A DNA stretch of 64,000 bases. Source: Loktanella atrilutea. GTDB taxonomy: Bacteria; Pseudomonadota; Alphaproteobacteria; Rhodobacterales; Rhodobacteraceae. The stretch covers positions 62,001 through 126,000 of the forward strand of contig NZ_FQUE01000002.1 in the NCBI RefSeq assembly GCF_900128995.1, given 5' to 3'. Position 1 is the first letter of the stretch. Every line of letters starts with the position of its first letter. Made by a program: the position numbers and the translations under genes. A model generated the notes under the pieces. It worked only from the letters and a program-made list of their open reading frames with translations, ran no database searches and had not been told where the DNA came from. Of the stretch, positions 2,576 through 31,758 are shown piece by piece.

Positions 2576-2593
2576 CAACACCGGATATCCCCA

Positions 2594-3163: not shown

Positions 3164-3164
3164 C

Positions 3165-5017: not shown

Positions 5018-5030
5018 GGAGGCTCTGAAC

Positions 5031-5540: not shown

Positions 5541-5549
5541 GTGATGATG

Positions 5550-5842: not shown

Positions 5843-5868
5843 AACCTTCACCCCTCCAAGGAATCATC

Positions 5869-6320: not shown

Positions 6321-6328
6321 GACACGCC

Positions 6329-9344: not shown

Positions 9345-9347
9345 TCC

Positions 9348-10337: not shown

Positions 10338-10340
10338 AGC

Positions 10341-10963: not shown

Positions 10964-11063
10964 TGAATTCTGTCGGCTGCGGAACCGGCCTTCGATGATA
11001 GCTCCCTGCCATCCGTACACGCGGCCCCAGTGCCAGTTTCAGCAAGCGCCGAGGTATCGATGC

Positions 11064-11390: not shown

Positions 11391-11683
11391 CGACGCTCTA
11401 TCTTGCCAACCAAACCACATCGCTCTGCGTCGTAATTCTCTGCTGGTGGCTGGCCCATCAGTACAGCCGGGATGAGCCGCCTGGGCGCATGATAGCCGTC
11501 GGCTTCTCGCTGGTCGGGTTCTCAATCCTGATCACCGCTCTCGGCCGTGGCGTGAATACCATTAACGGCGCCGATATCGTCCCCTGGATGATCGTCGTTA
11601 CCAAGCTCGCCACGATCTTCACATTCGTGGCCATCTCGATCCGGAGGCATCAGGTCAACGTCTCGAAGTACGGCGACCGGTAA
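11387..11683 (+). CDS. Small three-helix membrane protein, possible lysis partner
   Basis: A 98-residue protein overlapping the holin-like gene by four bases (ATGA). Three hydrophobic stretches are visible at about residues 8-26, 36-56 and 65-83, ending with a basic cytoplasmic-looking tail (IRRHQVNVSKYGDR). No domain is recognised. Position between a holin candidate and the endolysin suggests a holin partner or antiholin; it lacks the lipobox or coiled coil expected of a spanin. Confidence 0.55.
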   Translation: MTTLYLANQTTSLCVVILCWWLAHQYSRDEPPGRMIAVGFSLVGFSILITALGRGVNTINGADIVPWMIVVTKLATIFTFVAISIRRHQVNVSKYGDR

Positions 11684-11752
11684 CAGATCGTGATCGCGGG
11701 CCATTCGATAGAATTCGGCTGATCGACCTTCCCCCTTCCCAGCATGAAAGGC

Positions 11753-11766
11753 CCCCGCCCGCGGGG
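11753..11766 (+). terminator. GC hairpin just before the endolysin
   Basis: CCCCGC at 11753-11758, CC, GCGGGG at 11761-11766, followed by TGTTTT. It lies nine bases before the endolysin start. The two-base loop would open to a larger loop in RNA. It could be a weak terminator or a translation-control hairpin around the endolysin ribosome site. Confidence 0.4.
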
Positions 11767-11775
11767 TGTTTTGCC

Positions 11776-12444
11776 ATGAGCTACAGCATCAAGGCCATCC
11801 AGGCGCGGCTGAATGAGATCGGCTTCGGCCCGCTTTTGGTCGACGGCCTGCAGGGCCCGCGCACCGACGCGGCCGTCACGGCCTTCAAGGCATCTGTCGG
11901 TCTCTGGCCGCGCCCCTACGTCGGCCCCCTCACATGGGCAGCCCTGAACAAGGCGCCGGACAGCAACATCCCGTGGCTGGCCGAGGCAATCAAGGTCAAG
12001 GGCCTGCACGAGGCCCGCGACCTAACGCAGCTGCGTCGCTGGTTCGACAAGTCGGTCTCCTGGATCGACCCCCGCGAGATCCCGTGGTGCGGTGCCTTTG
12101 TCGCCACCTGCCATCGGCTGGCCTCGCCGGGTATTGCAATCCCCGACAACCCGCTGGGTGCCCGCAATTGGGGCACCTTCGGGGTGCCCTGCGCGCCGAC
12201 GCTGGGCGCTACGCTGACCTTCAGCCGGCCCGGGTCGAGCTGGTCCGGTCACGTCGGGTTCTACTGGGGCGAGGACAGCACCGCCTTTCACGTCCTCGGC
12301 GGCAACCAGTCCAACGCCGTCACGGTCACGCGCGTCGCCAAGACGCGCTTTCTGGAAAGCCGATGGCCCGCCGGTGCCCCCAACCCCAAGACCCGCGTGC
12401 TGCTGACGACCAGCGGCGCGCCCCTTTCCGCCAATGAAGCCTGA
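11776..12444 (+). CDS. Endolysin: PG-binding domain plus cysteine amidase/peptidase (TIGR02594-like)
   Basis: A 222-residue cell-wall hydrolase. Residues 1-58 are a PG_binding_1 domain (IKAIQARLNEIGFGPLLVDG, then GPRTDAAVTAFKA). The rest is a CHAP/NlpC-like domain of the TIGR02594 type: catalytic Cys105 in IPWCGAFVATC, conserved NWGTFG near 131-136, and His159 in SGHVGFYWG, then HVLGGNQSNAV. It has no signal peptide, so it needs the holin to reach the wall. The preceding hairpin and the following GAGGAGA-led gene frame it as its own unit within the lysis region. Confidence 0.88.
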   Translation: MSYSIKAIQARLNEIGFGPLLVDGLQGPRTDAAVTAFKASVGLWPRPYVGPLTWAALNKAPDSNIPWLAEAIKVKGLHEARDLTQLRRWFDKSVSWIDPREIPWCGAFVATCHRLASPGIAIPDNPLGARNWGTFGVPCAPTLGATLTFSRPGSSWSGHVGFYWGEDSTAFHVLGGNQSNAVTVTRVAKTRFLESRWPAGAPNPKTRVLLTTSGAPLSANEA

Positions 12445-13326: not shown

Positions 13327-16300
13327 ATGGCACTCTTTTATGGCGACCTCCAAGTCGGCGGCGCACGCATCCCCACAGCCTTAACGGCACTGGCGAACGG
13401 CAATAAGCGCACCACCGCGAACGTGGGCGACAGCATTGACCTGCTGATCCCGTCGCTGGAAGGCACCTCTCCTATCGCGGTGACTATCTCCGTGACGGTG
13501 GGTGGGGTCGAGGTATCCACCTCGCTGCCCTACATCGTGCAGTCCGACGATCAGGGCAAAGACATCCAGATCATCCGCACCATCGCGGGTGTGTCGCTGG
13601 CGACGGATGTGGTTGTGGTAGCTGGTGTATCGGAAGTGCCGGTTATCCTGACCCACCAAGGTATCACATGGACGGTGTCTGACGCCACGTTTGGCGGATA
13701 TGACATCGCTGGACGACCGTTCGTCGTGGTGCCTTCTGGTGTTGCGCAGGTGACGAGCGTATCGCCTGATATTGCTGTCGAGAACATCGCTGGCACAGAT
13801 CGCACGATCAACGGGCTGATGCTGAACCCCACGCGGACATCTGCATCTAATGCGCCGCATGGACTGGACAGCCGAGAGGCTGGCTACGACGCAGCATTGC
13901 TGGCAGGGACTTTTCCGCTTGATGTCGCATCTGGTGACACGCTTATGAAAGTGGTCTCTGACACAACCAGCACATCGACCCGCGTCGGGGCGTTCACATC
14001 GGTTTCGTGCCTGCACGTTCTGTCCGAGGTCCCAACGGGGTCTTTCGTCCTCGGCTCGACGGTGAAATGGGATGGGAAAAACACTCCTGCGTTTTATCCT
14101 GTCGTTGACCTCGATGCTTGGTATGCGGGAAAGGCGACCTATACTGCGCCTGCTTCAATGCCGCCTTACGCAGATATTTTCGATTGCGTAGGCAAGGCTG
14201 CGCCGACGCTTTCCTTACGGTCTGCAACGAGCAGCAGCGGTTACGAGCGGTTCCAGCCGTTCGGCCTGTCCGGTGACATCACCCCAGATGGCGGCTATGG
14301 CCTTTACCTTGGGCAGATGTTCGGTGCCGCAATGATGGGCACTGCGGTCACGGCTTACACCGAGGCGCAAACGAAAACTCTGGCCGCGCATATAATTGCT
14401 CATGGCATAGAAAATGGCGAGCCGCGTCGATACGGGCCGTTTAATGGGTTTCCTGACGGCGCACACGAGCAGTATGTGCAAGGACCGTACGCATTCGCTC
14501 TCGGGATGACTGGTCGTGCAGCCGAAATCCCGAACATCATGTCGGTTTGCCCCGGCAACTGGAGCCAAGCGTTCCTTATCACGCAAGACATGCTGACGAA
14601 TGACTTTGTGCGACACACCGATGTCAATAAGCCGTTCCTCTGGCGTGAGCGCACGCTCGGGGCGCAGCCGGGAGGCAATGTTGTCACGCTTCCGCTGGTT
14701 AACAATGGCAGCACGGCATCCGGCGATTACTATCAGACAAACATTCCGGCAGGCGCGCGGGTCATCCGTGTGTCTGACGGGACGGAGGCCATCGTCGCAG
14801 CCGTCACAGGCTTGGGATCACCCGGCACCACCAGCATTGACGTCACGCTTACGGCGGCGTCGCCTTTTGTGTCCGGTGATACTGTTTACATGGTCCCTGC
14901 CGATGCAGACTTTCCGGTGCTGGGTGAATATGACTGGACGATCCGTGGTTACACGGCAACCCGTAAGCAGATGTTCACGCCCGACGCAACAACCGAATAT
15001 CGTTCCTTGAACGGGTCGTGGCTCTCGCACATCCTCTCGCTGGGAATGCTGGGGTTTTACGATGAAAGCATGAATGTCCCGCGCGGATATGTTGAGCGTG
15101 TCATGACGCCAAATGACCCATCTGCGGCCAATGACTATTTCTACAACTTCACCGGCTTCACCTACCTTGGAACGCAATACCCCTTTGCCACCGAGGCATT
15201 TGACCTGCACTGGAATAACGTGTTTCCACCGCTTGAACCTCCCGTCGATATGGCAGCAGCGACGACCTCAATGCGGATGCCGCGCGCCAATAACGTGCTA
15301 GCGTCGGAGACAGACGAAAGGCAGTCGCTTCTGCAGCAGTCGTTCGCCAACAACATGTTTGTCAGCGGCACCGGCAACGAAAAAGCGTTCTTCGCGATTG
15401 TCCGCCTGCCGAAAGAACAGCGGGCATTTAGCCGGACTATTCAGCTTGTTGACGTGCTGACTGACTCATCGCGCTTTCTGAATATTCAGTATTACGGCGA
15501 AGCTGCGGGCAGCGGAACGACGCGCGGGAGGTTCGGTGCAAAATCAGGAGGTGGCTCGCCTGCCACAATATACTCCCAACCGTGGACCGAAGATTCAGCA
15601 TTGCTGGTGTATCGACGTGCGGCGTCAGGCAACATGGTTTTAGATTGGTATAGCCTGATCGATGGGACGAAGTATGCGGGGGCCGAGGGTGGGAATTACC
15701 AAGCCGTCAACTCCGCTTCGACCGCGCAGACGTGGGGCGTCGGCGGCGTCCGCGCCCCGGTTGCTGGCGACGGCTTAAATTGGCCCGGAGACATATCGGC
15801 CATCGGCTATGTGGACAGCACAACTGCGGCGGGCGATGCGCTAAACGATGCGGCATGGTCCGACATCGCCAAAGGCAAGCCTTTGTCCGCAGCCCTGCCT
15901 ATTGCAAGCACGCTTTGGGTCCGAGAGTTTACGGGAACCACTGCTGGACTGGCAAAGCCTGCATGGGCAACGGGCGACGTGTCCGTTCCAATGACCGTCT
16001 CCGGTGCGGCCCCCCTCAAGCCGGGTGGCGACTTCCGCAAGCAGGGTCTAACCGACTTCATGGTGTTGAACCCTTCCAGCCCTGTTGATGGGGATGTGTG
16101 GTCGATCCTGAATGGGGCAACCGTCACGCTGTCCGGCACTTGCTCCGGCCGCACTGGCAACGCAGAAGTGCGGATGCTGAACCCTGACGGCACCACCTCG
16201 CTTGATTGGACGGTTATCAGCCCAATTTCTGGCGGTGCCTTTAGTGGCACGGTAGCGGTTCCTGCCTCGACGGCAGGTTGGGTCGCACTGCAAATCAGGT

Positions 16301-17547
16301 CCAGCAATCAGCCCACCAAGATCACGAACTTCCGTGACAAGGTGGGTGCGGGCTTGAACGTGGTAGAGCTGGGGCAGTCGCAACGGCAGCGTATGCTCGC
16401 CAGCGTTGGCTTGGACCTTTCGTTCCCGCAGAAAAACACTGCGTCCTATGTGACAACGGACTTGGTGTCTGGCCCGAACACAACCCCGATGCAGCAAAAC
16501 CTTCTAACGCGTGCAACCGCGAGCGATGGAACGCGCGCGCTGGTAAATCAGATCCGAGCGTTCTGGCCTAGTCTGCCCATTCGCATCATTGATGGCGCGG
16601 TCAACGGCACTGGCCCGATCCAGCTTATGCAGGACAGTAACGCCGCCCGAAGCTGGGCCGAACTGCAAACGAAGATCGACAGAGTGGGCGGAAAGCTCGA
16701 TGCAATCGTGATGAACTGGGCCACGACAGAGTGGCGGGCGGTCAGCAATGGGATTGGTGAGGGCGATGTCGTATTCGAGGCGCTCATGCTTGGCTCTGGC
16801 CCAGCATGGGACGCCCTTGTTGCCGCTAACGGCGGGACGGCGGGACTTCACAGCTTCGGCTCTTATGTCGCTGCCGGCGCAAAGGTCATTCTTGAACCTG
16901 CAACACGCTATTCGTCACCCCTGATAAACGGTGACGTGCACAGCCCGACACGCCTTAATCAGATCAACATGGCAAATACGAAGGGGTGGACGGTCGGCCC
17001 GCCGATCTCGGACTTTGCGATTCAAGCATTCGGAACCGACCTCAACGGCCCCCATCAGGACGCGGCAAAGCAAGGCAACCGCCGCATGGGTGCTCGCTCG
17101 GCAATCGGCATCGCGCGTGCGTTTGGGAGGGACAGTTCGACCAACCCCTACTTCACCACCGTTGTCCGTAGCGGCGGAACACTGACGGTTTCAGTTGCCC
17201 TTCCAAACGGCGGCACACTCTCATCGCCCGCCCCAACTGCCCTCCGCAACTGGCAGGTTGACGATGGCGGCTCGGGTACGTTTGTTAGCACCGGATTCAC
17301 CGCCGCAATATCTGGAAACACGGTTATCCTAACAAAGACCTCAGGTAGCTGGGCTGCGGGAACAAAGGTCAAGTATCTGGCTAACGGTGAACCTCGCGCA
17401 GACAGTGATGGGGCTGCGGAGGATGCGATTGTCGCCGGGATGCTCTACGAGACATGGGGGCCAAGCACCCTTGAAGTTGGCCTCCCTGTCATGGGGTCTT
17501 TGTCCGGCGGAAAGTGGGTCAGCTTCTACGAGGCGACAGCAGGATAA
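13327..17547 (+). CDS. Giant tail-spike-like protein with SGNH-like C-terminal region
   Basis: A 1406-residue protein behind AGGAGA, the largest in the prophage. The first ~140 residues are beta-rich Ig-like repeats (VGGVEVSTSLPYIVQSDDQG...). The middle has no recognised domain. Around residue 1012 begins an SGNH/sialate-O-acetylesterase-like region: GQSQ with Ser1018, MNWATTEW at about 1129-1136 in the block III place, and DLNGPHQDAAKQGNRRMG with His1243 as the block V equivalent. The end is again beta-rich (GGTLTVSVALPNGGTL...). A role in deacetylating a surface polysaccharide is inferred; the Asn of canonical GQSN is Gln here. It is followed by a GC hairpin. Confidence 0.75.
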   Translation: MALFYGDLQVGGARIPTALTALANGNKRTTANVGDSIDLLIPSLEGTSPIAVTISVTVGGVEVSTSLPYIVQSDDQGKDIQIIRTIAGVSLATDVVVVAGVSEVPVILTHQGITWTVSDATFGGYDIAGRPFVVVPSGVAQVTSVSPDIAVENIAGTDRTINGLMLNPTRTSASNAPHGLDSREAGYDAALLAGTFPLDVASGDTLMKVVSDTTSTSTRVGAFTSVSCLHVLSEVPTGSFVLGSTVKWDGKNTPAFYPVVDLDAWYAGKATYTAPASMPPYADIFDCVGKAAPTLSLRSATSSSGYERFQPFGLSGDITPDGGYGLYLGQMFGAAMMGTAVTAYTEAQTKTLAAHIIAHGIENGEPRRYGPFNGFPDGAHEQYVQGPYAFALGMTGRAAEIPNIMSVCPGNWSQAFLITQDMLTNDFVRHTDVNKPFLWRERTLGAQPGGNVVTLPLVNNGSTASGDYYQTNIPAGARVIRVSDGTEAIVAAVTGLGSPGTTSIDVTLTAASPFVSGDTVYMVPADADFPVLGEYDWTIRGYTATRKQMFTPDATTEYRSLNGSWLSHILSLGMLGFYDESMNVPRGYVERVMTPNDPSAANDYFYNFTGFTYLGTQYPFATEAFDLHWNNVFPPLEPPVDMAAATTSMRMPRANNVLASETDERQSLLQQSFANNMFVSGTGNEKAFFAIVRLPKEQRAFSRTIQLVDVLTDSSRFLNIQYYGEAAGSGTTRGRFGAKSGGGSPATIYSQPWTEDSALLVYRRAASGNMVLDWYSLIDGTKYAGAEGGNYQAVNSASTAQTWGVGGVRAPVAGDGLNWPGDISAIGYVDSTTAAGDALNDAAWSDIAKGKPLSAALPIASTLWVREFTGTTAGLAKPAWATGDVSVPMTVSGAAPLKPGGDFRKQGLTDFMVLNPSSPVDGDVWSILNGATVTLSGTCSGRTGNAEVRMLNPDGTTSLDWTVISPISGGAFSGTVAVPASTAGWVALQIRSSNQPTKITNFRDKVGAGLNVVELGQSQRQRMLASVGLDLSFPQKNTASYVTTDLVSGPNTTPMQQNLLTRATASDGTRALVNQIRAFWPSLPIRIIDGAVNGTGPIQLMQDSNAARSWAELQTKIDRVGGKLDAIVMNWATTEWRAVSNGIGEGDVVFEALMLGSGPAWDALVAANGGTAGLHSFGSYVAAGAKVILEPATRYSSPLINGDVHSPTRLNQINMANTKGWTVGPPISDFAIQAFGTDLNGPHQDAAKQGNRRMGARSAIGIARAFGRDSSTNPYFTTVVRSGGTLTVSVALPNGGTLSSPAPTALRNWQVDDGGSGTFVSTGFTAAISGNTVILTKTSGSWAAGTKVKYLANGEPRADSDGAAEDAIVAGMLYETWGPSTLEVGLPVMGSLSGGKWVSFYEATAG

Positions 17548-17592: not shown

Positions 17593-18189
17593 CTACTGTT
17601 TTTTCCGACTGCGGCGCATCATGGCGATAAAACCAAGACTCCCGAACAGCAGGGGGAGTGACGCGGGTAAAGGTACGGGTGATACATCAGGAAGCGTGCC
17701 GCTTACGGTCCACTTTCCAGGCAACGAAGTTCCCTCAATCATTAAAACACCATCAGGCAAATCAAAGTCTATCGAGTAATCATTTCCGTACGAACTGAAA
17801 CCCATATCTGGATTGTCATTAAACCATATGAAATTCCAGTCGGTTACGCTATAGTCGTCTGCTAAGTTAAAATACCCTTGAATACTTGATGTTGCATCCG
17901 TAATTGCGGTAATCCAAGGCCTCTTGCGATCCAATTCGTTGGCACCAGCATCAAACTGTACCCCTTTGTCTCGAAGGTCGAAGGGCAACTGGTCTGTGTC
18001 TATTTCTATAAAGAAGTCATACCTTTCTTTTTCCACGTAACTCTCTACGAATGTAGGGTTCTCGAAATTCGAGTCGTAGCGCGTTACGATTATATCAAAT
18101 AACGGGTTTGTCAGATCATACCGAAGTACCTCAGCATTCGCCGCCCCCGCCGCCAGCACCATCGCCGCAGCCATCGCAAACATCTTCAT
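17593..18189 (-). CDS. Exported VPLPA-CTERM protein (hypothetical)
   Basis: The ATG at 18189 follows GGGAGACGG and opens a 198-residue protein with a clear signal peptide (MKMFAMAAAMVLAAGAANA). The C-terminus has the VPLPA-CTERM sorting signal: VSPVPLPASLPLLFGSLGF, then a short hydrophobic end and the basic tail MMRRSRKKQ. The middle is Asp/Asn/Tyr-rich and unrecognised, as usual for PEP/VPLPA-CTERM cargo proteins, which are sorted by an exosortase-like enzyme. Base composition is visibly AT-richer than the host genes. It lies convergent to the spike gene, so it may be prophage cargo. Confidence 0.8.
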   Translation of the reverse strand: MKMFAMAAAMVLAAGAANAEVLRYDLTNPLFDIIVTRYDSNFENPTFVESYVEKERYDFFIEIDTDQLPFDLRDKGVQFDAGANELDRKRPWITAITDATSSIQGYFNLADDYSVTDWNFIWFNDNPDMGFSSYGNDYSIDFDLPDGVLMIEGTSLPGKWTVSGTLPDVSPVPLPASLPLLFGSLGFIAMMRRSRKKQ

Positions 18190-18349
18190 CGTTCCGTCTC
18201 CCGTTGGTTGACGTAACGCTAGGGCTACTCTGCCGATTCGGGAAAGTGGCAAAATCATGGCGGACGGATATTCCTGCGACAGATCAACATCCTGAACGAC
18301 CATCTAATCCGCGCCGGATCTTGAACCTTCTGCCGTACCGGCCCACCAT

Positions 18350-18777: not shown

Positions 18778-19569
18778 TCAAGATGTCTTAACCGGCTCTT
18801 GGTAATTTTCGTCAAGCCAAGCAGAAAGTTTCAAGCCGGTGAGTTTTTCTGTTTTTACAATATCGCGCCGGAACCGCTTGTTCAGGCGCATAGTGGTATC
18901 GCGCCACTCTCCGGTGACATGCCTGGAATCCACCGGGACTATATATTTCTGCGCTTGATCGCTGGGACGATAGTTGCCAATGGCAACACCCAAGAAATCA
19001 AAAATCTTGTTTAAGGTCCCGACTTCATCGAGCCAAAGCTCATCTGAGGTGAGGAAAAGAACTTGCTTGCGTGGGAACAAGCTGAGCAATCGACTTATCT
19101 GGTAGGAATAGTAAGACCGTTCCACGTAGGAATAGACACGGTGCACTCCCCCACGAGCTAAGCGGACACGGCTTCTGCCAAGCAGGGATACCGCCTGAGA
19201 AAATGATTTTTGCTCCGCGTTACGGGCTGTCTCCATCTTCCACGCTGAGAGTGCGCGGTATGTTGGGTGTCGCAGAATTATAATGATCCGCGCCATCGGA
19301 TTGTATTCGCAAAGACGTTGCATCGCGTTTGGCCAATATAGGTAGATCGGTGTTGCTTCACCGAAAATCTTGGATTGGCTAAAGTCGAAGTGCGCGTGCA
19401 GCTGCTCGTAGGGCGGATTCGACCAGTCGTAATCTTCGCAATCAAAAAAATGGATCTCTTTTAGACCCGACAAGAACAATTGTGGATGGGAACTTAATTT
19501 GAACTGCAGCGCTGTCGTACCGCCCTTCTGAGTTCCGGCAATAAAGAAGTCTACTTTTTTCTCAATCAT
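18778..19569 (-). CDS. Sulfotransferase family protein (prophage cargo)
   Basis: A 263-residue PAPS-dependent sulfotransferase. The 5' phosphosulfate loop is AGTQKGGTT at about residues 11-19, KEIHFFDCEDYDW follows near 37-49, and the 3' phosphate-binding region is IIILRHPTYRALSAW near 95-109. No signal peptide or membrane segment, so it would work on a cytoplasmic acceptor, for example a lipid or sugar precursor of the cell surface. The sequence is clearly AT-richer than the neighbouring host genes, a sign of transfer. It is flanked by phage-type genes, so surface modification of the lysogen is a reasonable inference. Confidence 0.82.
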   Translation of the reverse strand: MIEKKVDFFIAGTQKGGTTALQFKLSSHPQLFLSGLKEIHFFDCEDYDWSNPPYEQLHAHFDFSQSKIFGEATPIYLYWPNAMQRLCEYNPMARIIIILRHPTYRALSAWKMETARNAEQKSFSQAVSLLGRSRVRLARGGVHRVYSYVERSYYSYQISRLLSLFPRKQVLFLTSDELWLDEVGTLNKIFDFLGVAIGNYRPSDQAQKYIVPVDSRHVTGEWRDTTMRLNKRFRRDIVKTEKLTGLKLSAWLDENYQEPVKTS

Positions 19570-20219: not shown

Positions 20220-21389
20220 TCAGGGTGTCAGCACGACCTTCACGCAGTCGTCCTTCTTGTCGCGGAACTGCTTGTAAAGGTCAGGACCATCGGCGAGCGA
20301 CCCCCGGTGCGTGATCAGGAACGTCGGATCGATGCGGCCTTCCTGAATATGCTCCAGCAGCTTCGGCGCATGCTGCATGACATGCGTCTGTCCCATGCGA
20401 AACGTCAGGGCCTTGGCGAAGGCAGAGCCGATCGGAAACTTATCGACAATGGCGGCATAGACTCCGGGGATCGACACGATACCGCCCTTGCGGCAGCACA
20501 TGATCGCCTCGCGCAGGACGTGGGGCCGTCCGGTTTCCTGAAACGTCGCCGTCTTGACCTTGTCATAGACCGTGTCGATGACGCCCGTGCCATGCGCTTC
20601 CAGACCGACGGCATCGATCACCTTGTCGGGCAGCATGCCGTTCGTCAGTTCCATCAGTGCGTCGTAAGGCTTCACCTGCGACCGGTCGATGACCTCCGCC
20701 CCATTCTCTGCCGCAAGCTTCAGCCGCTCCGGCACGTCGTCGATGACGAAGACACGTTCCGCCCCCAGCAATTTGCAGGACTTGAGCGTGAACAGACCCA
20801 CCGGGCCGGCGCCCCAGATCGCCACGACGCTGCCGGGACCGACCTCGGCGTTCACCGCGGCCTGATAGCCGGTCGGAAAGATGTCGGACAGGAACAGCAC
20901 CTGTTCGTCGGTCAGCCCGTCGGGCACCTTCAGGTGTGTCGCATCCGCAAAGGGGATGCGCACGTATTCCGCCTGTCCCCCGGCATAGCCGCCGTAAAGG
21001 TGGGAAAAGCCGAACAGGCCGGCGCCGGCCTGACCGGTGATCAGCGCCAGCTTTTCGGCGTCCGGATTGGATTCGTCGCACAAGGAAAACTGCTTGGTCT
21101 TGCACCAGTGGCAATGGCCGCAGTTGATGGTGAAGGGGACCACGACGCGGTCGCCCTTCTTGAGGTTGCCGACGCCGGAGCCGACGTCCTCTACGATCCC
21201 CATGAACTCGTGACCCATGATGTCGCCGGATTTCATTTCAGGCATGAACCCGTCGAACATATGAAGGTCAGAGCCGCAGATCGCGGTGGATGTCACCCGG
21301 AGGATGGCATCGCCGGGATCGCCGATGACCGGGTCCGGATGGGTGTCGACGCGAAAATCGCCGGTCCCGTGGTATGTGACTGCACGCAT
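20220..21389 (-). CDS. Zinc-dependent alcohol dehydrogenase (formaldehyde-dehydrogenase-like)
   Basis: A 389-residue member of the zinc alcohol dehydrogenase family. Start chosen at 21389, seven bases after AGGA; an ATG at 21404 is also possible. Catalytic-zinc elements are ICGSDLHMF and GHEFMGIVEDVGSG; the structural zinc site is CGHCHWCKTKQFSLC near residues 98-112; AIWGAGPVGLFTLK near residue 180 is the NAD(P) Rossmann loop. Resembles glutathione-independent formaldehyde or aldehyde-disproportionating dehydrogenases. Transcribed away from katE, from an EcfG-type promoter at 21430-21454, so a stress role is likely. Exact substrate unknown. Confidence 0.88.
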   Translation of the reverse strand: MRAVTYHGTGDFRVDTHPDPVIGDPGDAILRVTSTAICGSDLHMFDGFMPEMKSGDIMGHEFMGIVEDVGSGVGNLKKGDRVVVPFTINCGHCHWCKTKQFSLCDESNPDAEKLALITGQAGAGLFGFSHLYGGYAGGQAEYVRIPFADATHLKVPDGLTDEQVLFLSDIFPTGYQAAVNAEVGPGSVVAIWGAGPVGLFTLKSCKLLGAERVFVIDDVPERLKLAAENGAEVIDRSQVKPYDALMELTNGMLPDKVIDAVGLEAHGTGVIDTVYDKVKTATFQETGRPHVLREAIMCCRKGGIVSIPGVYAAIVDKFPIGSAFAKALTFRMGQTHVMQHAPKLLEHIQEGRIDPTFLITHRGSLADGPDLYKQFRDKKDDCVKVVLTP

Positions 21390-21429: not shown

Positions 21430-21454
21430 AACGCCCCGCGCAACCCGGGGTTCC
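21430..21454 (-). promoter_or_regulatory. EcfG-type general-stress promoter of the alcohol dehydrogenase
   Basis: Plus-strand AACG (21430-21433), 16 bases, GTTCC (21450-21454), which reads GGAAC-N16-CGTT on the minus strand, a full match to the alphaproteobacterial EcfG consensus. The -10 lies about 40 bases before the ATG. It is one half of the 322-base gap 21390-21711 between the dehydrogenase and katE, which holds no gene. Confidence 0.8.
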
Positions 21455-21619
21455 TGACCACACGGGCACCGCGACCGCATAGAGCGGCCTTTGGTCCAAT
21501 GAATTGCCATAGAACAAGATTGTCGCGGCGCGGGCTGGTGCACTCTGCAACCACGACCCAAACTGCGTTTACTTCGCTTCGATTTGATCGGAATTCGGGC
21601 GAACCTGACGCCCCCCGGT

Positions 21620-21644
21620 GGAACGATCATTTGTCTGCGGTGTT
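21620..21644 (+). promoter_or_regulatory. Probable EcfG-type promoter of katE
   Basis: GGAAC (21620-21624), 16 bases, TGTT (21641-21644). The -35 is perfect, the -10 differs from CGTT by one base. It lies about 68 bases before the katE start. Weaker than the promoter facing the other way, but the context (catalase) fits. Confidence 0.6.
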
Positions 21645-21711
21645 GATGATTTACGAAAACGTGATCGCTGCGGCCGTCCGTTTCATATCACCCGTAGAAA
21701 GAGCCTCCGTC

Positions 21712-23826
21712 ATGGATCAAGCCATACCGTCAAACACGCCGTCGGCCGACACCCAGTCCACCGATGAAACCGTCGAACGGGACCGCCACCCCGGCACCGG
21801 CGGAGAGACACAGCAGCGGCCCGAAAAAGGCGCCGAGCGCCTGACGACTGCGCAGGGCATCCCGGTGTCCGATAACCAGAACACCCTGAAGGCCGGGCCG
21901 CGCGGCCCGTCGCTTCTCGAAGACTTCCATTTCCGCGAAAAGATTTTCCACTTCGACCACGAGCGGATTCCAGAACGTGTGGTCCACGCCCGCGGCTACG
22001 GCGCCCACGGCTATTTCGAGACGACGGACGCCATTCCCGACCTGACGGCGGCTCACCTCTTTCAGGAGAAGGGGCGGCGGGTGCCCGTCTTTGCCCGCTT
22101 CTCGACCGTGGCCGGCAACATGGGCTCGCCCGACCTCGCCCGCGACGTGCGCGGCTTTGCGGTGAAGTTCTACACCGAGGACGGTAACTGGGACCTCGTC
22201 GGCAACAACATCCCCGTCTTCTTCATTCAGGACGCGATGAAGTTTCCCGACCTGATCCACGCGGCAAAGCAGGAACCCGATCGCGGCTTCCCGCAGGCGC
22301 AGACGGCGCACGACAACTTCTGGGATTTCATCTCTCTCATGCCGGAAGCGATGCACATGGTCATGTGGACCATGTCCGACCGCGCAATTCCCCGGTCCCT
22401 GCGGACCATGGAAGGCTTCGGCGTCCACACGTTCCGGTTCGTGAACGCGGACGGCAAGGGGCACTTCGTCAAGTTCCACTGGAAGCCGAAGGCCGGCCTG
22501 CAGTCGGTCCTGTGGGACGAGGCCGTCAAGATCAACGGCGCCGATCCCGACTTTCACCGCCGCGACATCTGGAACGCGATCGAGATGGGCGACTTTCCCG
22601 AATGGGAACTGGGCGTGCAGGTCTTCGATGACGACTTCGCCGACAGCTTCGAGTTCGACATCCTCGATGCAACCAAGCTGATCCCGGAAGAGCAGGTTCC
22701 CGTGCGGATCATCGGCCGGATGGTGCTGGACCGCCGCGTCGACAACTTCTTTGCGGAAACCGAACAGGTCGCCTTCTGCACGCAAAACATCGTGCCGGGC
22801 ATCGACTTTACCAACGATCCGCTGCTGCAGGGGCGCAACTTTTCCTACCTCGACACGCAGACGAAGCGACTGGGCGGGCCAAACTTCACCCATATCCCGA
22901 TCAACGCGCCGCGCTGCCCGATGCACCATTTCCAGCAGGACGGCCACATGGCCATGCACAATCCCAAGGGGCGTGCCAACTATGAACCGAACGGCTGGGC
23001 GCAGGGCGGCCCCCGCGCCGATCCGAAGGCCGGTTTCCGGTCCTTCCCGGAGGAGGTCGAGGGCGAGAAGCGGAAGGTCCGCAGCGAGACCTTTGCCGAT
23101 CACTACAGCCAGGCGCGGCAGTTCTACATCAGCCAGACCGCGGTCGAGCAGGATCACATGGCCGACGCCCTCGTCTTCGAACTGTCGAAGGTCGTGGTGC
23201 CTGAGATCCGCGAGCGGATGGTGGCCCACCTGCCGCATATCGACGCCGATCTGGCACGCAAGGTGGCCGATGGTCTGGGGCTGGACGGTGTGCCGAAGGC
23301 GCATGAACCGGCGCGCCAGCCGATCACCGACCTGCCCGCGTCGGACGCGCTGTCCATCCTCAAGAACGGGCCTGACAACTTTGCCGGGCGCAAGATGGGC
23401 ATTCTGGTGACCGACGGCATCGACGACGCCGCCCTCGACGGTCTGAAGGACGCCGTGACGGAGGCCGGAGGCATCGTCGAGATCGTCGCCCAGAAGGTCG
23501 GCGGCGTCGTGACGGCCGGCGGCAAGCGGGTGCCCGCGGACCAGAAGATCGACGGCGCGCCGTCCGTTCTTTATGACGCCGTGGCCATTCTGGCCACCGC
23601 CGACGGGGCAAAGGCGCTGGCGGAACTGCATCCGGCCCGCACCTTCCTCGCGGACGCCTTCGCGCACGCCAAGTTCATCGGCCACACGCAGGAGGCGGAG
23701 CCGTTGATAAAGGCGGCGGGCGTCAAGCCCGACGACGGCATGATGGCGCTTGGTGCGGCCAAGGACGCGAAGGCCTTCGTGAAGGCCTGCGGCGCCCTGC
23801 GGTTCTGGACGCGCATGGAAAAGTAA
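21712..23826 (+). CDS. katE: Large-subunit catalase (HPII type)
   Basis: A 704-residue monofunctional heme catalase that splits hydrogen peroxide. Start at the ATG behind GAAAGAG; the longer upstream frame crosses the promoter. Catalytic His is in [16 protein letters not shown] near residue 90, the catalytic Asn in [10 protein letters not shown] near 164, and the heme Tyr in [15 protein letters not shown] near 380. From about residue 560 a DJ-1/PfpI-like flavodoxin-fold domain follows ([19 protein letters not shown]...), as in E. coli KatE. The N-terminal 50 residues are polar, disordered-looking. Divergent from the dehydrogenase and controlled by an EcfG-type promoter; ends in a strong terminator. 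Confidence 0.96.
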
Positions 23827-23833
23827 GGCCACC

Positions 23834-23868
23834 GGCTGCCGCGCCCCACCGGGCGCGGCAGCCCCTTT
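23834..23868 (+). terminator. Terminator behind katE
   Basis: Perfect 13-bp stem GGCTGCCGCGCCC / GGGCGCGGCAGCC (23834-23846 / 23851-23863), loop CACC, then CCTTT. It lies seven bases after the catalase stop and just before the next promoter. Confidence 0.78.
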
Positions 23869-23876
23869 GCGACACC

Positions 23877-23902
23877 GGAACCGGCGGCGGTTCACCGTCG
23901 TT
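23877..23902 (+). promoter_or_regulatory. EcfG-type promoter of the fdhF-like/fdhD operon
   Basis: GGAAC (23877-23881), 17 bases, CGTT (23899-23902). Both boxes match the alphaproteobacterial general-stress sigma consensus. It lies between the katE terminator and the molybdoenzyme gene, about 45 bases before its ATG. Confidence 0.75.
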
Positions 23903-23947
23903 CATCCCGAACATCACGACGGCACAGACCTGAAGGATAGCGCGCTC

Positions 23948-26269
23948 ATGGCCACGTCTCCGGACCGATCCGACACCGACCGTCCCGCCCATGACGCGAC
24001 CGATCAGGATCCGGACACGCCCTTCGATCACTATGCCGCCGGGGGATGGGGATCGCTGCGGGGCGTGTCCGAGGCCTTTGGCGAATCCAGCAGTTCCACC
24101 CGCGCGCTGAAGATCCTGTCGAAGCTGAACAAGCCCGGCGGCGTGATGTGTTCGTCCTGCGCCTGGGCCAAGCCTGCCAAGCCCCAGACCTTCGAGTTCT
24201 GCGAGAACGGCGCAAAAGCGACGCTGTGGGAACTCGACACCCGCCGTGCGGATGCGGCGTTCTTTGCCGCGCATCCGCTTGCCGATCTGCGCGAAATGCA
24301 CGACCACGACCTTGAAAAGACGGGACGTCTGACCGACCCGCTGCGCTACGATCCCGACAGCGACACCTATCAGCCCGTCAGCTGGGATGACGCCTATGCC
24401 GACATCGGCGCAGAATTGCGGGCGATGACCCCGCGCGAGGCGGTGTTCTATGCTTCCGGCCACGCAGGGCTGGAGGCGTCCTACCTCTACGCGCTGTTCG
24501 CCCGGGCGATGGGGCACCAGAACCTGCCGCAGTCGTCCAACATGTGCCACGAGACGACGAGCGTGAACCTGCAGACCTTCATCGGGACGCCGGTCGGCAC
24601 CTGCACACTGGAAGACTTCGACCAGTGCGATGCGATCTTCTTCTTCGGGCAGAACACCGGCACCAACAGCCCGCGTTTCCTGCACGTGCTGAAGGACGCG
24701 GTGAAGCGCGGCTGCCGGATCGTCACCTTCAACCCCGTGCGCGAACGGGGGCTGATCGAATTCGTCGATCCGCAGAACCCGATCCAGATGACCGTGGGAT
24801 CGGCCACGCAGATCTCCGAGAAATACTATCAGGTGCGGCCCGGCGGCGATATCGCGGCGATCGCCGGCCTGATGAAATGCGTTCTGGATGCAGAAGATGC
24901 CGCGCCGGGCACGGTGATCGACCACGCCTTCATCGCCAGCGACACCACCGGGTTCGAGGAGACCGCGGCGGCGGTCCGTGCGATGGATTGGGCCGACATC
25001 GAACGGAATGCCGGCCTGTCGCGCGACATGATCGCAGAGGCCGCCGAGATCTACCTTGGCGCGAAGAACGCCATCGGCATCTACGGTATGGGGCTGACGC
25101 AACACGTGAACGGCTGGCTGAACCTCGGCATGCTGTGCAACCTGCTGCTGATGCGCGGCAACATCGGCCGACCGGGGACCGGCATCTCTCCGGTGCGGGG
25201 ACATTCCAACGTGCAGGGCCAGCGCACGGTCGGTATCGGCGAAAAGTCGTCGCACATGCCTGCGGACAAGCTGCGGGAGCTGTTCGACATCGACCCGCCC
25301 GCGGGAGAGGGTCTGAACGCGGTGCACGCCTGCGAGGGCATCCTCGACGGCCGCGTGAAGGCGATGGTCCTGCTGGGGGGCAATCTGGTCCGCGCCCTGC
25401 CCGACCGCGACCGGATGGAACGGGCCTGGCCCCGCCTGCGGCTGACCGTCAACATCGCGACCAAGCTGAACCGCACGCATCTGACGCCCGGGCAGGTGTC
25501 CTATCTGCTGCCCTGTCTGGGGCGGACGGACGAGGACGTGCAGGCCAGCGGCCCGCAGGCGGTGTCGATGGAGGATTCGCTGTCGCACATCTATGGCTCG
25601 ATCGGCACCGCATCGCCACCCGGGCCGAAGGTGCAGTCGGAAACCGCCATTGTCGCGCGGATCGCCAAGGCGACGCTGGACCCCAATCCAAAGCTGACGT
25701 GGGACGACTGGATCGGCAACTACGACCTGATCCGCGACCTGATCGCGCAGACCTTTCCCGACAAGTTCGCCGACTTCAACGACAGGCTGTTCGAGCCCGG
25801 CGGGTTCTACAGGGGCAACCCGGCGCGAGAGCGTGTCTGGAAGACCGAAAGCGGCAAGGCGCAGTTCACGCCGCCGACGACTTTGTCGGCACTGGGCGAG
25901 GAAACCACCGCCGATGGCAAGATCATGACGCTGGTCACCCTGCGGTCGAACGACCAGTTCAACACGACGATCTACGGCTTTTCCGACCGGCTGCGCGGGC
26001 TGGAGGGTAGCCGCGAGATCGTCCTCATCAACCGTGACGAGATGGCGAGGCTTGGATTGGCGGAGGGCCAGAAGGTCAGTCTTGTCTGCGCCATCGACGA
26101 CGGACATGCGCGCCGGGTCGATGACCTGACGGTGACGCCCTACGACCTGCCGGCGGGCTGCATCGCGGGCTATTACCCCGAGCTCAATCCGCTGGTGCCG
26201 CTGAGCTATCACGAAAAGAATTCCCAGACGCCGGCCTACAAGGGCACCCCGGTGGAGATCGTGGCATGA
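23948..26269 (+). CDS. FdhF/YdeP-family molybdopterin oxidoreductase
   Basis: A 773-residue molybdenum enzyme of the formate-dehydrogenase-like alpha-subunit family (YdeP type). Start at ATG 23948 behind AAGGAT. The N-terminus lacks the usual CxxC-x-C iron-sulfur motif but has GVMCSSCAWAKP near residues 64-75; SSNMCHETTSVNL near 197-209 is in the Mo-ligand place. GYGMGLTQHVNGW-like (IYGMGLTQHVNGW), RGNIGRPGTGISPVRGHSN and a C-terminal molydopterin dinucleotide domain (LVTLRSNDQFNTTIYGFSD) are typical. Four-base overlap with fdhD shows co-expression. Substrate unknown; YdeP is linked to acid resistance. Controlled by an EcfG-type promoter here. Confidence 0.88.
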   Translation: MATSPDRSDTDRPAHDATDQDPDTPFDHYAAGGWGSLRGVSEAFGESSSSTRALKILSKLNKPGGVMCSSCAWAKPAKPQTFEFCENGAKATLWELDTRRADAAFFAAHPLADLREMHDHDLEKTGRLTDPLRYDPDSDTYQPVSWDDAYADIGAELRAMTPREAVFYASGHAGLEASYLYALFARAMGHQNLPQSSNMCHETTSVNLQTFIGTPVGTCTLEDFDQCDAIFFFGQNTGTNSPRFLHVLKDAVKRGCRIVTFNPVRERGLIEFVDPQNPIQMTVGSATQISEKYYQVRPGGDIAAIAGLMKCVLDAEDAAPGTVIDHAFIASDTTGFEETAAAVRAMDWADIERNAGLSRDMIAEAAEIYLGAKNAIGIYGMGLTQHVNGWLNLGMLCNLLLMRGNIGRPGTGISPVRGHSNVQGQRTVGIGEKSSHMPADKLRELFDIDPPAGEGLNAVHACEGILDGRVKAMVLLGGNLVRALPDRDRMERAWPRLRLTVNIATKLNRTHLTPGQVSYLLPCLGRTDEDVQASGPQAVSMEDSLSHIYGSIGTASPPGPKVQSETAIVARIAKATLDPNPKLTWDDWIGNYDLIRDLIAQTFPDKFADFNDRLFEPGGFYRGNPARERVWKTESGKAQFTPPTTLSALGEETTADGKIMTLVTLRSNDQFNTTIYGFSDRLRGLEGSREIVLINRDEMARLGLAEGQKVSLVCAIDDGHARRVDDLTVTPYDLPAGCIAGYYPELNPLVPLSYHEKNSQTPAYKGTPVEIVA

Positions 26270-27051
26270 CCGTTCAGGGCGCGCGCTTTCCCGTCGGGCA
26301 CCCGATGACCGCCCAGCCCCCGCTGGTCAGCGAGCGGCCCGTGGCCATCGTCTGCAACGCGGTGACGCTTGGCGTGATGATGGCCAGCCCCACCGATCTG
26401 GAGGATTTCGCGCTGGGCTTCGCCGTGACCGAAGGCGTGATCCACGACCCGTCGGAGCTGCGCGAGATCGAGATCGTCGACCACGCGAACGGCACCGAGG
26501 CGCGGCTGTGGCTGTCCCCCGCGGCGGCGGTGCGGGCCGCGGCCCGGCACCGGGCGATGACAGGACCGGTGGGTTGCGGTCTGTGCGGGATCGACAGTCT
26601 GGACAAGGTGGACCGCCCCTTGCCGCCGCTGTCCGCGCATGCCGTGACCCTGACCCGGGCAGAGGCCTGTGCCGCGCCGGACCTGCTGCGGCTGCGGCAA
26701 CCGGAACACGATCGAACCCGCGGCTGCCACGCCGCGGGCTTTCTGATCCCCGGGCGCGGCATCGTGCTCGCCCGCGAGGACGTCGGACGCCACAACGCGC
26801 TCGACAAGCTGGCCGGCGCCTTGGTCAAATCCGGCCTGACGCCGGCATCCGGTGCTGTGGTCCTCACCTCCCGCGTCTCGACGGAAATGGTGCAGAAGGC
26901 AGTGATGATGGGCGCGGCCACGGTGATCGCCGTATCGACCGCGACGGACTATGCCGTGCGTCTAGCCGACCGCGCCGATCTCACCCTGATCACCCGCGTC
27001 CGCGACGGGCATTGCGAGGTCCTGTCGGCCCCCCACCGTCTGCTGTCCTGA
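26266..27051 (+). CDS. fdhD: Formate dehydrogenase accessory sulfurtransferase FdhD
   Basis: A 261-residue FdhD, which passes sulfur from IscS to the molybdenum cofactor of formate-dehydrogenase-like enzymes. Catalytic Cys pair is in VGCGLCGIDSL near residues 102-112; EDFALGFAVTEGVI near 44-57, CHAAGF near 151 and REDVGRHNALDKLAGAL near 168-184 are family hallmarks, with SRVSTEMVQKAVMMG near 203. Overlaps the molybdoenzyme gene by four bases (ATGA), so it most likely serves that enzyme. No signal peptide; cytoplasmic. Confidence 0.95.
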   Translation: MTVQGARFPVGHPMTAQPPLVSERPVAIVCNAVTLGVMMASPTDLEDFALGFAVTEGVIHDPSELREIEIVDHANGTEARLWLSPAAAVRAAARHRAMTGPVGCGLCGIDSLDKVDRPLPPLSAHAVTLTRAEACAAPDLLRLRQPEHDRTRGCHAAGFLIPGRGIVLAREDVGRHNALDKLAGALVKSGLTPASGAVVLTSRVSTEMVQKAVMMGAATVIAVSTATDYAVRLADRADLTLITRVRDGHCEVLSAPHRLLS

Positions 27052-27146
27052 CGGACCCGCGCCCCCGGCCGCATGGCAAAGACCCGCCGGGGAAGTTAAC
27101 CCAATTCGGTAGAACACGATTATTGCGCAGCGCCGCGGAAACTGCC

Positions 27147-27171
27147 GGAACTTCGCCTGCCATCTTACGTT
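27147..27171 (+). promoter_or_regulatory. EcfG-type promoter of the DUF2383 gene
   Basis: GGAAC (27147-27151), 16 bases, CGTT (27168-27171): full consensus. It lies 38 bases before the DUF2383 ATG. No other promoter-like sequence is needed for this gene. Confidence 0.8.
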
Positions 27172-27209: not shown

Positions 27210-27638
27210 ATGCCTACAGATACACGTCACGTGCTGCATACCATCCACACCGCCACCAACGATATCCTGTCGGGCTACGACACGATGGTCGAACGGGCAG
27301 AACCCGAGATCCTTCCGACCGTCCGGGATCTGCAGCGCATGCACCGCGAGCATGCGGCCGCGCAGGCGAACTGGCTGTCGCGGTTCGCCGAGTCCGGCGA
27401 GGATGACGAGTCCTTTCAAGGCTCCGTCAATCAGGCTGTCGTGACGATCAGGGACTGGATCACCGGGCTGGATGAAAACGCGCTTTCCGCGGTGCGCGAT
27501 GGCGAACAGAAGCTGCTGGACGTCTACGATTCCACGATGACCGACTGGACCGTCGACGGCGATGCCGACATCTCTGACGGCCTGACCAGGCAGTTCGCCG
27601 AGATCGAGGACAAGGTCGCCGCGTTGCCGGAGCGCTGA
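27210..27638 (+). CDS. DUF2383 / PA2169-type four-helix protein
   Basis: A 142-residue helical protein behind CGAGGG. The layout (LHTIHTATNDILSGYDTMVE, then LQRMHREHAAAQANWLSRFAE, then an acidic C-terminus) fits the PA2169/DUF2383 ferritin-like family. These proteins are stress-induced and of unknown activity; the usual metal Glu/His set is only partly visible. It has its own EcfG-type promoter, and the small membrane protein behind it is probably cotranscribed. Confidence 0.7.
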   Translation: MPTDTRHVLHTIHTATNDILSGYDTMVERAEPEILPTVRDLQRMHREHAAAQANWLSRFAESGEDDESFQGSVNQAVVTIRDWITGLDENALSAVRDGEQKLLDVYDSTMTDWTVDGDADISDGLTRQFAEIEDKVAALPER

Positions 27639-27724: not shown

Positions 27725-27889
27725 ATGGACTTCAATTTCCTGCTGCCGCTTCTCGCGATGTTCACCTTGCTCGGGGCGCTGATTTTCTCTCTGGTCAACA
27801 AGAAGCAGACCGAGGATCGCAAGAAGGACCGCACCGCGCCCGCAAGCAGTCTGGCCGTCGACGGCAACCCGCATACCAAGGTGGACTGA
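27725..27889 (+). CDS. Small membrane protein (hypothetical)
   Basis: A 54-residue protein starting at ATG 27725, eight bases after AAGGA; the upstream ATG at 27698 has no good ribosome site. One membrane helix (FLLPLLAMFTLLGALIFSL, about residues 5-23) is followed by a very basic/acidic charged stretch (NKKQTEDRKKDR) and a soluble end. It lies 86 bases behind the DUF2383 gene, probably in the same stress transcript. No family recognised. Confidence 0.6.
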   Translation: MDFNFLLPLLAMFTLLGALIFSLVNKKQTEDRKKDRTAPASSLAVDGNPHTKVD

Positions 27890-27925
27890 CAGCGATACGG
27901 CCCGCGTCGCACCTGTGAAGGCAGG

Positions 27926-27951
27926 AACGCCACCCCTTCGGGCGGCGTTTT
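27926..27951 (+). terminator. Terminator after the small membrane protein
   Basis: AACGCC (27926-27931), CCC/GGG inner pairs with one A-C mismatch, mate GGCGTT (27944-27949), then TTTCG-type end. It lies 36 bases after the stop of the small membrane gene. The same bases also read GGAAC-N17-CGTT, see rejected items. Confidence 0.55.
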
Positions 27952-28117
27952 CGTGTCCGGGCGGTGGGCGACAGGACGCGGGCGATTGCCCCGATGGTCG
28001 CGCGCGACCGCCGCGCGGTTGTTGAAACCGCCAAAGAGGGTGCTATCACTGATGGACGCGCCGTCAGTCCTGACGCCGCAGCGAAACGCGGGCCAGAAGG
28101 CCTCGGAAGGGGACCGG

Positions 28118-30345: not shown

Positions 30346-31758
30346 ATGACAATTCTTTCCACATTGCAAGACGTGCTGGGGCCGCAGGGCCTGCTGACAA
30401 CCGAGGCCGACATGGCCCCCTGGGCCCGCGACTGGACCGGCGCCTATGCCAGCACCCCGCTGGCCGTCGCCCGGCCCGCAACGACGGCAGAGGTCAGCGC
30501 CGTGATGGCGGCCTGTCACGCCAGCGGGCAGCCCGTCGTCCCCGTCTCGGGCAACACCGGGCTGAACGGCGGCGCGGCGGCGCAGGGTGCGCTGGTGCTG
30601 TCGCTTGACCGGATGACCGCGATCCGCGGGATCGACACCGCCGCCCGCACGGCAGAGGTGGAGGCGGGCGTGATCCTGTCCCGCCTGCACGACGCCGCTG
30701 CGGATCACGACCTGATCTTTCCCCTGACCTTCGGCGCGCGCGGGTCCGCGATGATCGGCGGCGTGCTGTCCACCAACGCGGGCGGGTCGAACGTCCTGCG
30801 CTACGGCAATACGCGCGATCTGGTGCTGGGGCTGACCGCCGTGATGGCGGACGGGCGGGTGATGGACCTGATGGGCCGGCTGCACAAGGACAACAGCGGT
30901 CTGAACCTCAAGCACCTTCTGATCGGGGCAGAGGGGCAGCTGGGCATCATCACCGCCGCCACGGTAAAGCTCTTTCCGAAGCCCCGCGCCTACGCGACGG
31001 CAATGGTCGCCGCCGCGTCCCTCGATGCCGCCCTGACCCTGCTGCACCGGGTGCAGGCGGCGACGGGCGGCGCGGTGGAGGCGTTCGAATTCATGCCCGC
31101 CGCCTTTATCGCGGGGCATCTGGCGTTGGTCGCCGGGGCGAAGCCGCCCTTCGCCGAGGCCCATGACGTCAACATCCTGATCGAGGTCGGCGCCACCGCC
31201 CCCCGTGACGCGACCCCGCTCGACGACGGCACCGTGCCCATCGTGACCCTGCTGGAAGACACGCTGGTGCAGATGATGGAGGAGGGACTGATCCTCGACG
31301 CCGTCACCGCCCGGTCCGAAGGCCATCGGCGCGAGATGTGGGCGCGGCGCGAGGCGGCGGCGGAGATCACCTTTGCCCGCCGCCCCTTCGTCGATACGGA
31401 TATCGCCGTGGCCCTGCCCGACGTCGCGACCTTTCTGGCAGAGGCGCGGCGGCGTCTTCTGGTGCTCGACCCCGCCGCATCGGACCTGTCGGTCGCGCAT
31501 CTGGGCGACGGCAACGTGCATTACACAGCCTATCCCAGCCGCGACGACGCGGACCTGAAGGCCGCGATCCGCGAGATGGTCGAGGACGTGGTGCAGGACC
31601 TGCGCGGATCCTTCAGCGCAGAGCATGGCGTCGGCCTGTCCAAGCTGGGCAGCATGGCGCGGCGCAAGGACCCGGTGGCGCTGGACGCGATGCGGGCGAT
31701 CAAGGCGGCGCTGGACCCCAAGGGCATCCTCAACCCCGGCAAGACCATCCCGCGATGA
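30346..31758 (+). CDS. FAD-binding 2-hydroxyacid dehydrogenase (GlcD/D-lactate dehydrogenase-like)
   Basis: A 470-residue flavoprotein. The N-terminal FAD_binding_4 domain has PVVPVSGNTGLNGGAA near residues 60-75 and an RGSAMIGGVLSTNAGGSNVLR block near 131-151; the C-terminal FAD-oxidase domain has VAHLGDGNVHYTAYP near 382-396, GVGLSKL near 427 and a DPKGILNPGKTIP end. Likely oxidises glycolate, D-lactate or D-2-hydroxyglutarate. Start at ATG 30346. It sits behind gph and overlaps the MFS gene by four bases. Confidence 0.88.
   Translation: MTILSTLQDVLGPQGLLTTEADMAPWARDWTGAYASTPLAVARPATTAEVSAVMAACHASGQPVVPVSGNTGLNGGAAAQGALVLSLDRMTAIRGIDTAARTAEVEAGVILSRLHDAAADHDLIFPLTFGARGSAMIGGVLSTNAGGSNVLRYGNTRDLVLGLTAVMADGRVMDLMGRLHKDNSGLNLKHLLIGAEGQLGIITAATVKLFPKPRAYATAMVAAASLDAALTLLHRVQAATGGAVEAFEFMPAAFIAGHLALVAGAKPPFAEAHDVNILIEVGATAPRDATPLDDGTVPIVTLLEDTLVQMMEEGLILDAVTARSEGHRREMWARREAAAEITFARRPFVDTDIAVALPDVATFLAEARRRLLVLDPAASDLSVAHLGDGNVHYTAYPSRDDADLKAAIREMVEDVVQDLRGSFSAEHGVGLSKLGSMARRKDPVALDAMRAIKAALDPKGILNPGKTIPR

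Follow-up and report, generated by a model that had tools for sequence, protein, structure and literature searches.

In alphaproteobacteria other than the one considered here, the general stress response is known to be set in motion by partner switching among the response regulator PhyR, the anti-sigma factor NepR and the sigma factor EcfG. The 64 000-nucleotide stretch of the Loktanella atrilutea genome analysed in the following (the window) holds four units that each lie behind an EcfG-type promoter box, namely the genes for a zinc alcohol dehydrogenase (ADH), for a large-subunit catalase (katE), for an FdhF/YdeP-family molybdoenzyme with its accessory protein (ydeP and fdhD), and for a DUF2383 protein. 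With good confidence, these units can be regarded as a local patch of a large and ordinary EcfG (ECF15) general stress regulon, in which EcfG would drive redox and one-carbon (C1) clean-up at times of stress. The point of lasting interest would be that the general stress sigma factor and a formate-dehydrogenase-like enzyme appear to be linked recurrently.

According to the available passages of the papers cited here, the alphaproteobacterial EcfG regulons of Sphingopyxis granuli (TFA), Sphingomonas melonis (Fr1) and Rhizobium etli combine, as does the present genome, a PhyR-NepR-EcfG set with the motif GGAAC-N16-CGTT. In S. granuli this motif is found with TGTT as a weaker but working −10 element (PMC7083833), the variant that also precedes katE in the window, and the R. 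etli EcfG motif is identical (PMC3892343). Catalases depend on EcfG in S. melonis (PMC6599016), and catalase, OsmC, CsbD and Ku are targets that the published regulons share with this genome (PMC7083833, PMC6599016). Because PhyR of Rhodobacter sphaeroides, a member of the same order, has been reported to be specialised for membrane stress and not general (PMC5830050), a large, canonical-looking EcfG regulon in the present organism is informative in itself.

For the YdeP family, a described counterpart of the same family and similarly paired with fdhD is PP_0256-0257 of Pseudomonas putida, which forms one transcript and is induced by formate; deletion of the pair makes the cells less tolerant of formate, and supplying it again restores tolerance (PMC10308882). 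P. putida is not an alphaproteobacterium and its pair answers to formate, whereas ydeP of the window lies behind an EcfG-type box. YdeP of Escherichia coli has been tied to acid stress, and the YdeP-family enzymes of P. putida share 59% identity with Fdh4A of Methylobacterium extorquens (PMC10308882). M. extorquens is itself an alphaproteobacterium with PhyR, which is said to regulate 246 targets, and its Fdh4 is described as a molybdopterin oxidoreductase-like formate dehydrogenase (PMC6520949); it is likened to the window enzyme by description, and the available passages of that paper contain no link between Fdh4 and PhyR. A connection of YdeP or of a formate dehydrogenase with EcfG or PhyR was not found in the literature searched, a partial search by title. 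The terms ‘formate dehydrogenase’ and ‘molybdopterin’ are absent from the main texts of the EcfG papers compared, the supplementary regulon tables of which may list YdeP; as to Bradyrhizobium, the available passages of one paper on ECF sigma factors hold none of the enzyme terms looked for, and those of another mention catalase in the reference list only. The pairing of YdeP with the general stress response, singled out as the least expected feature when the locus was initially annotated, turned out to be the best-tested and best-conserved part of the present reading. If true, it would provide the stress response with a metabolic arm, and the poorly understood YdeP family with a testable role in stress.

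Stress machinery and EcfG-type boxes of the genome

The genome encodes a NepR that scores over the Pfam cut-off, with the gene of an ECF sigma factor adjoining and, divergently oriented, a PhyR over the NCBIfam cut-off. The sigma factor is called EcfG from its place and not from an ECF15 model; in NCBIfam it matches a generic sigma family. An exact box is present on each strand of the stretch that separates nepR-ecfG from phyR, the two overlapping (C41:31425-31450 on the plus and 31433-31457 on the minus strand), as is expected for an autoregulated EcfG.

Within the window, a pattern scan confirmed the position and strand of all four boxes initially annotated, three of them exact with CGTT and one a TGTT variant. 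The ADH gene (20220..21389, minus strand, 389 residues) is preceded by GGAAC-N16-CGTT at 21430..21454 on the minus strand, 40 bases from its ATG when counted, as for all boxes, between the end of the −10 element and the start codon. Upstream of katE (21712..23826, plus strand, 704 residues) GGAAC-N16-TGTT, with its non-consensus −10, is found at 21620..21644 on the plus strand, 67 bases from the ATG. The ydeP gene (23948..26269, plus strand, 773 residues) follows GGAAC-N17-CGTT (23877..23902, plus strand) at a distance of 45 bases, and the gene for the 142-residue DUF2383 protein (27210..27638, plus strand) follows GGAAC-N16-CGTT (27147..27171, plus strand) at 38 bases. All four boxes are, therefore, correctly oriented and placed 38-67 bases ahead of an ATG. 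The start of fdhD (26266..27051, plus strand), which encodes the formate dehydrogenase accessory sulfurtransferase, overlaps the end of ydeP by 4 bases, and the two genes are for this reason probably co-transcribed.

The number of boxes in the window is, by itself, only modestly unusual: GGAACN15-18YGTT occurs six times, the matches beyond the four named ones being at 27924 on the plus and 42749 on the minus strand, against a mean of 2.65 in dinucleotide shuffles, 5 of 100 of which reach six. Genome-wide, the exact pattern GGAACN16-17CGTT is found at 80 sites and the reversed pattern at 68. What distinguishes the two sets is position, since 51 of the 80 exact boxes lie, in the correct orientation, no more than 200 bp upstream of a predicted start versus 9 of the 68 reversed-pattern sites (Fisher p=1.7e-10), and 20 of the former versus 50 of the latter fall inside genes. 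Genes were called for this comparison by one codon-usage script trained on seven genes of the window, a crude procedure that was identical for both sets. The 51 upstream boxes include those of ADH, ydeP and DUF2383 as well as the site at 27924, which sits in a hairpin; the katE variant falls outside the 80.

Among the proteins encoded downstream of the 51 boxes, eight were picked by eye and confirmed by Pfam, namely CsbD, OsmC, Ku, DJ-1, Cu/Zn superoxide dismutase, a PRC-barrel protein (barely over the cut-off), DUF892 and a protein of alpha-amylase type. The genome looks as if it held a large, typical EcfG regulon with the four-unit stretch as one patch of it. The initial description of a compact regulon, or stress cassette, could not be maintained, the stretch contributing three boxes to the 51 upstream-placed exact ones plus the katE variant, and its neighbourhood not being conserved elsewhere. 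At another locus of the genome (L206, G000:C21:244000-247800) a divergent pair of boxes lies before the genes of a Ku protein, identified with Pfam, and of a protein that appears by eye to be glycosyltransferase-like.

Boxes in relatives and co-occurrence with NepR

Conservation was assessed on the best 80 of the ydeP relatives listed from named genomes, a box being counted as exact when N15-18 and YGTT were found within −300 to +40 of the match. Such a box precedes ydeP in 33 of the 80 loci and the reversed pattern in one, the background for such a stretch in these loci being about 0.011. By group, the exact box is present in 18 of 27 alphaproteobacterial loci with at least 65% identity, in 15 of 49 below that value and in none of the four from Methylophaga. 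Loci with a box before ydeP include L002 (Oceanicola granulosus) and L004 (Pseudooceanicola batsensis). With N16-17 and at most one mismatch allowed, the box is seen in 56 of the 76 alphaproteobacterial loci, versus 6 for the control, and again in none of the four of Methylophaga. NepR was sought in 50 of the source genomes and found at E 0.001 or better in 46, of which 45 exceed the cut-off; the remaining four are those of Methylophaga, a gammaproteobacterium. That the box recurs before ydeP in many relatives suggests that formate disposal may be part of the stress response in related bacteria.

In a ydeP tree built from the window and 79 of the loci (80 rows, the truncated row L052 having been dropped), the Methylophaga sequences (L011, L012, L015 and L016) are nested in an alphaproteobacterial clade, inside an eight-row group with support 96 that also includes four box-bearing Rhodobacterales rows and the internal order of which is without resolution. 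The presence of the box changes 17 times along the tree, against a mean of 25.9 when labels are shuffled and with none of 500 shuffles as low; with 17 changes, boxes have therefore been gained or lost many times. A probable scenario is that ydeP moved horizontally into Methylophaga and then lost its box and stress control, the four related species counting as one event. Methylophaga would allow ydeP to be compared, as a natural experiment, in the presence and in the absence of the stress sigma factor.

Before DUF2383, an exact box is found in 10 of 17 other copies, in one of them at −346, and the reversed pattern in none; with one mismatch the figures are 12 of 17 and, for the control, 2 of 17. 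This sample includes a copy in the genome under study (L101) and a second copy in genome G101, three loci without a usable match having been dropped. The copy at L101 (G000:C11:1763-2182), the second in the same genome, is 45% identical and has no EcfG box. For katE, the exact box occurs in 5 of 20 loci of the long clade, once at −290, and in 1 of 9 loci of small catalases, with the reversed pattern in 1 of 30 katE loci. Before ADH paralogues no exact box occurs in 18 loci, and the reversed pattern is found once among the ADH loci. The expectation that the same boxes precede the orthologues in relatives was accordingly borne out for ydeP and DUF2383 and not for ADH, which is considered below; before katE the box is seen in a minority of loci.

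NepR is found in only 89 of the 198 genomes of the family to which the window belongs, where the general stress system thus seems to be patchily distributed. With the genome under study excluded, so that the base rate is 88 NepR-positive genomes of 197, all 11 carriers of ydeP (at least 55% identity), all 11 carriers of ADH (at least 53%), 19 of 20 carriers of long katE (three of the 20 from partial matches) and 17 of 18 carriers of DUF2383 are NepR-positive, with p from 1e-4 to 9e-7. The identity cuts were chosen at gaps in the lists after these had been seen, and two more distant ydeP-like matches (44 and 46%) sit in NepR-negative genomes. Within the 88 NepR-positive genomes, ydeP and ADH, each present in 11, occur together in seven against an expected 1.38 (p=1.4e-5); for the other pairs p is 0.008 (katE and DUF2383), 0.055 (ydeP and katE) or above 0.1 (the remainder).

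Taking the machinery, the conserved box and the bias towards NepR-positive genomes together, the EcfG control proposed for the whole stretch from the outset appears likely for ydeP-fdhD and DUF2383, fairly likely for katE, for which the support is moderate, and uncertain for ADH, for which it is weak.

Proposed mechanism and competing explanations

Built on the machinery, the boxes, the operon overlap, the active-site residues, conservation and co-occurrence as read from the sequences, the proposed mechanism adds EcfG-dependent transcription, enzyme activities and a physiological purpose, and is worded conditionally in these respects. As carried over from other alphaproteobacteria, stress would lead to phosphorylation of PhyR, which would take NepR off EcfG, and the freed EcfG-RNA polymerase would start transcription at GGAAC-N16/17-CGTT sites. 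The large-subunit catalase would then remove H2O2, the YdeP/Fdh4A-type molybdoenzyme, with its own FdhD, would oxidise formate to CO2, the DUF2383 protein would be made alongside, and the formaldehyde-dehydrogenase-like ADH may supply formate. Formate oxidation by YdeP is proposed because the active site is conserved and because of the P. putida homologue, and the successive conversion of an aldehyde to formate by ADH and of formate to CO2 by YdeP is plausible. More tentatively, and as a doubtful extension, alphaproteobacterial YdeP/Fdh4A-type formate dehydrogenases might be recurrent effectors of the general stress response, forming with ADH a C1 clean-up line that feeds reductant while catalase removes peroxide, and shedding the box on transfer to a bacterium without the stress sigma factor (i.e. 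Methylophaga).

Several observations weigh against a stress regulon with this content. An exact box was not found in 47 of the 80 ydeP loci, including seven from Azospirillum; with one mismatch, the katE box is present in 6 of 20 loci of the long clade versus 3 of 20 for the control; and no box, either exact or with one mismatch, precedes any of 11 ADH orthologues (mismatch control, 1 of 11). Small catalases, taken as a control, are likewise enriched in NepR-positive genomes (25 of 34, p=2e-4), which means that background, for instance common descent, accounts for some of this signal. An fdhD mutant of P. putida is cited as releasing nearly the parental amount of CO2 from formate (PMC10308882). 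Finally, the boxes cluster no more tightly than chance might give: 34% of simulations with 80 randomly placed sites contain some three in a span of 5.8 kb, as do 11% of those with 51 sites, and in 2.5% four of the 80 fit into 6.6 kb. Clustering was rejected as evidence after these simulations. The argument that four such sites in about 6 kb are unlikely to arise by chance, made at first from the sequence, therefore stands as regards placement and conservation, which are strong evidence, and falls as regards clustering, which is weak evidence.

Among the competing explanations, the one that survives best, and which is a real possibility even if held somewhat below an even balance, is that EcfG controls only ydeP-fdhD, DUF2383 and perhaps katE, the box before ADH being either a fortuitous GC-rich match or one gained in a particular lineage, with ADH controlled otherwise. 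This would account for the bare upstream regions of the 11 orthologues, and it finds a parallel in the zinc ADH of S. melonis, which depends on EcfG, lacks a well-matching box and is classed as a putatively indirect target in the available passages (PMC6599016). It has to contend, however, with a box of perfect consensus that ends 40 bases from the start codon, where the reversed pattern is seldom so placed (within 200 bp in the 9 of 68 cases given above), and with an ADH that tracks NepR in all 11 of its genomes and ydeP in seven of them. The enzyme itself matches the glutathione-independent formaldehyde dehydrogenases 4jlw (E 2.5e-54) and 1kol (7.3e-49) over residues 2-375 of 389, i.e. nearly full length, while remaining far below the equivalog cut-off for that activity (TIGR02819, 203.5 bits versus 636.95); its top-scoring solved chain is another alcohol dehydrogenase, 4cpd.

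A second explanation, which is unlikely, holds that YdeP is no formate dehydrogenase but serves in acid or redox stress with another substrate. By profile score, the ydeP product belongs to the FdhF/YdeP family (TIGR01701, 879.7 bits, cut-off 582.15), the same broad family as E. coli YdeP, and falls below the cut-off of the E. coli YdeP equivalog (NF007406, 700.8 bits versus 1473). Its solved relatives are distant, the best having an E of 1e-34 over about half its length, which leaves room for a different substrate, as do the acid-stress association of E. coli YdeP and the reported, largely dispensable role of P. putida fdhD in CO2 release from formate. Formate is nonetheless favoured by the requirement for PP_0256-0257 in formate tolerance, by the presence of fdhD in the operon and by the active site. 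In the alignment with formate dehydrogenase H (FDH-H; PDB 1aa6), Cys200-His201 coincides with the Sec-His pair and Arg417 with an Arg, presumably the catalytic Sec140, His141 and Arg333. Of the 81 aligned rows, 80 retain the Cys and His, the exception being truncated, and all retain the Arg.

The remaining products of the stretch also proved to be correctly identified at family level by profile matches. FdhD scores 167.8 bits against TIGR00129 (cut-off 140.9) and 155.4 against NF001943 (cut-off 269), and has a CxxC motif at residue 104. The katE product, of the large-subunit (HPII) type, contains the Pfam domains Catalase and Catalase_C and stays below the HPII equivalog cut-off (NF008422, 932.3 bits versus 1102), and the DUF2383 protein exceeds the cut-off of PF09537 (58.9 bits versus 30.8) without reaching that of the related TIGR02284 (27.3 versus 44.8).

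As GGAAC-type −35 elements are common to several ECF groups, another ECF sigma factor that recognises such an element, and not EcfG, might act at the boxes, and the generic family match of the sigma factor found here would agree with this; it is, however, a very unlikely solution, as the same box stands on both strands between nepR-ecfG and phyR, all four genes favour NepR-positive genomes, and CsbD, OsmC, Ku and catalase fit the published EcfG regulons (PMC7083833, PMC6599016). That the boxes are chance GC-rich matches without function is hardly credible in view of their upstream position (51 of 80 versus 9 of 68) and of their recurrence before ydeP in relatives (33 of 80 versus 1 of 80), even if the raw excess genome-wide is small (80 versus 68 control sites) and three sites in 6 kb often arise by chance.

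Gene neighbourhood within and outside the window

A conserved cassette was considered and rejected, as katE, ADH and DUF2383 are rarely near ydeP elsewhere: among the 80 ydeP loci, for some of which the flanking DNA covered was short, katE was found nearby in two, ADH in four (three of these matches at 38% identity or less), fdhD in 14 and DUF2383 in none. The single genome of the same genus that was sampled has rpe at 88% identity; the cassette genes are missing from the 20 kb compared, where other DNA adjoins rpe and nothing else is common with the window. An informative exception to this variability is a Hyphomicrobiales plasmid (L023), on which a gap of 65 bases separates katE (2806-4914) from ydeP (4980-7298) and one GGAACN16TGTT (2593-2617), with the same −10 variant as the katE box of the window, precedes both.

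Downstream of the DUF2383 gene, an open reading frame (ORF) of 54 codons (27725..27889, plus strand), the product of which has a hydrophobic N-terminus and no family match, is possibly part of the DUF2383 transcript. It is followed by a hairpin and four T (27924..27955, plus strand) that contain GGAACN17CGTT. By judgement, this site was rejected as a promoter and read as a terminator, the box match being put down to chance, although it was counted among the 51 upstream boxes. The fold has a z of −1.56, 14 of 200 shuffles folding equally well, and the hairpin is not listed by the terminator scan.

On the other side, between ADH and the phage tail genes, lie a sulfotransferase-like ORF (18778-19569) and two ORFs without a Pfam or PHROG match, one of 236 codons (17593-18303) and, on the opposite strand, one of 1406 codons (13327-17547). 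The initial placing of the stretch next to a prophage is a fair one, contractile-tail genes occupying positions 154-12444 to its left, where six of the nine ORFs tested matched baseplate, tail fibre, tail sheath, tape measure, tail protein and tail lysozyme types.

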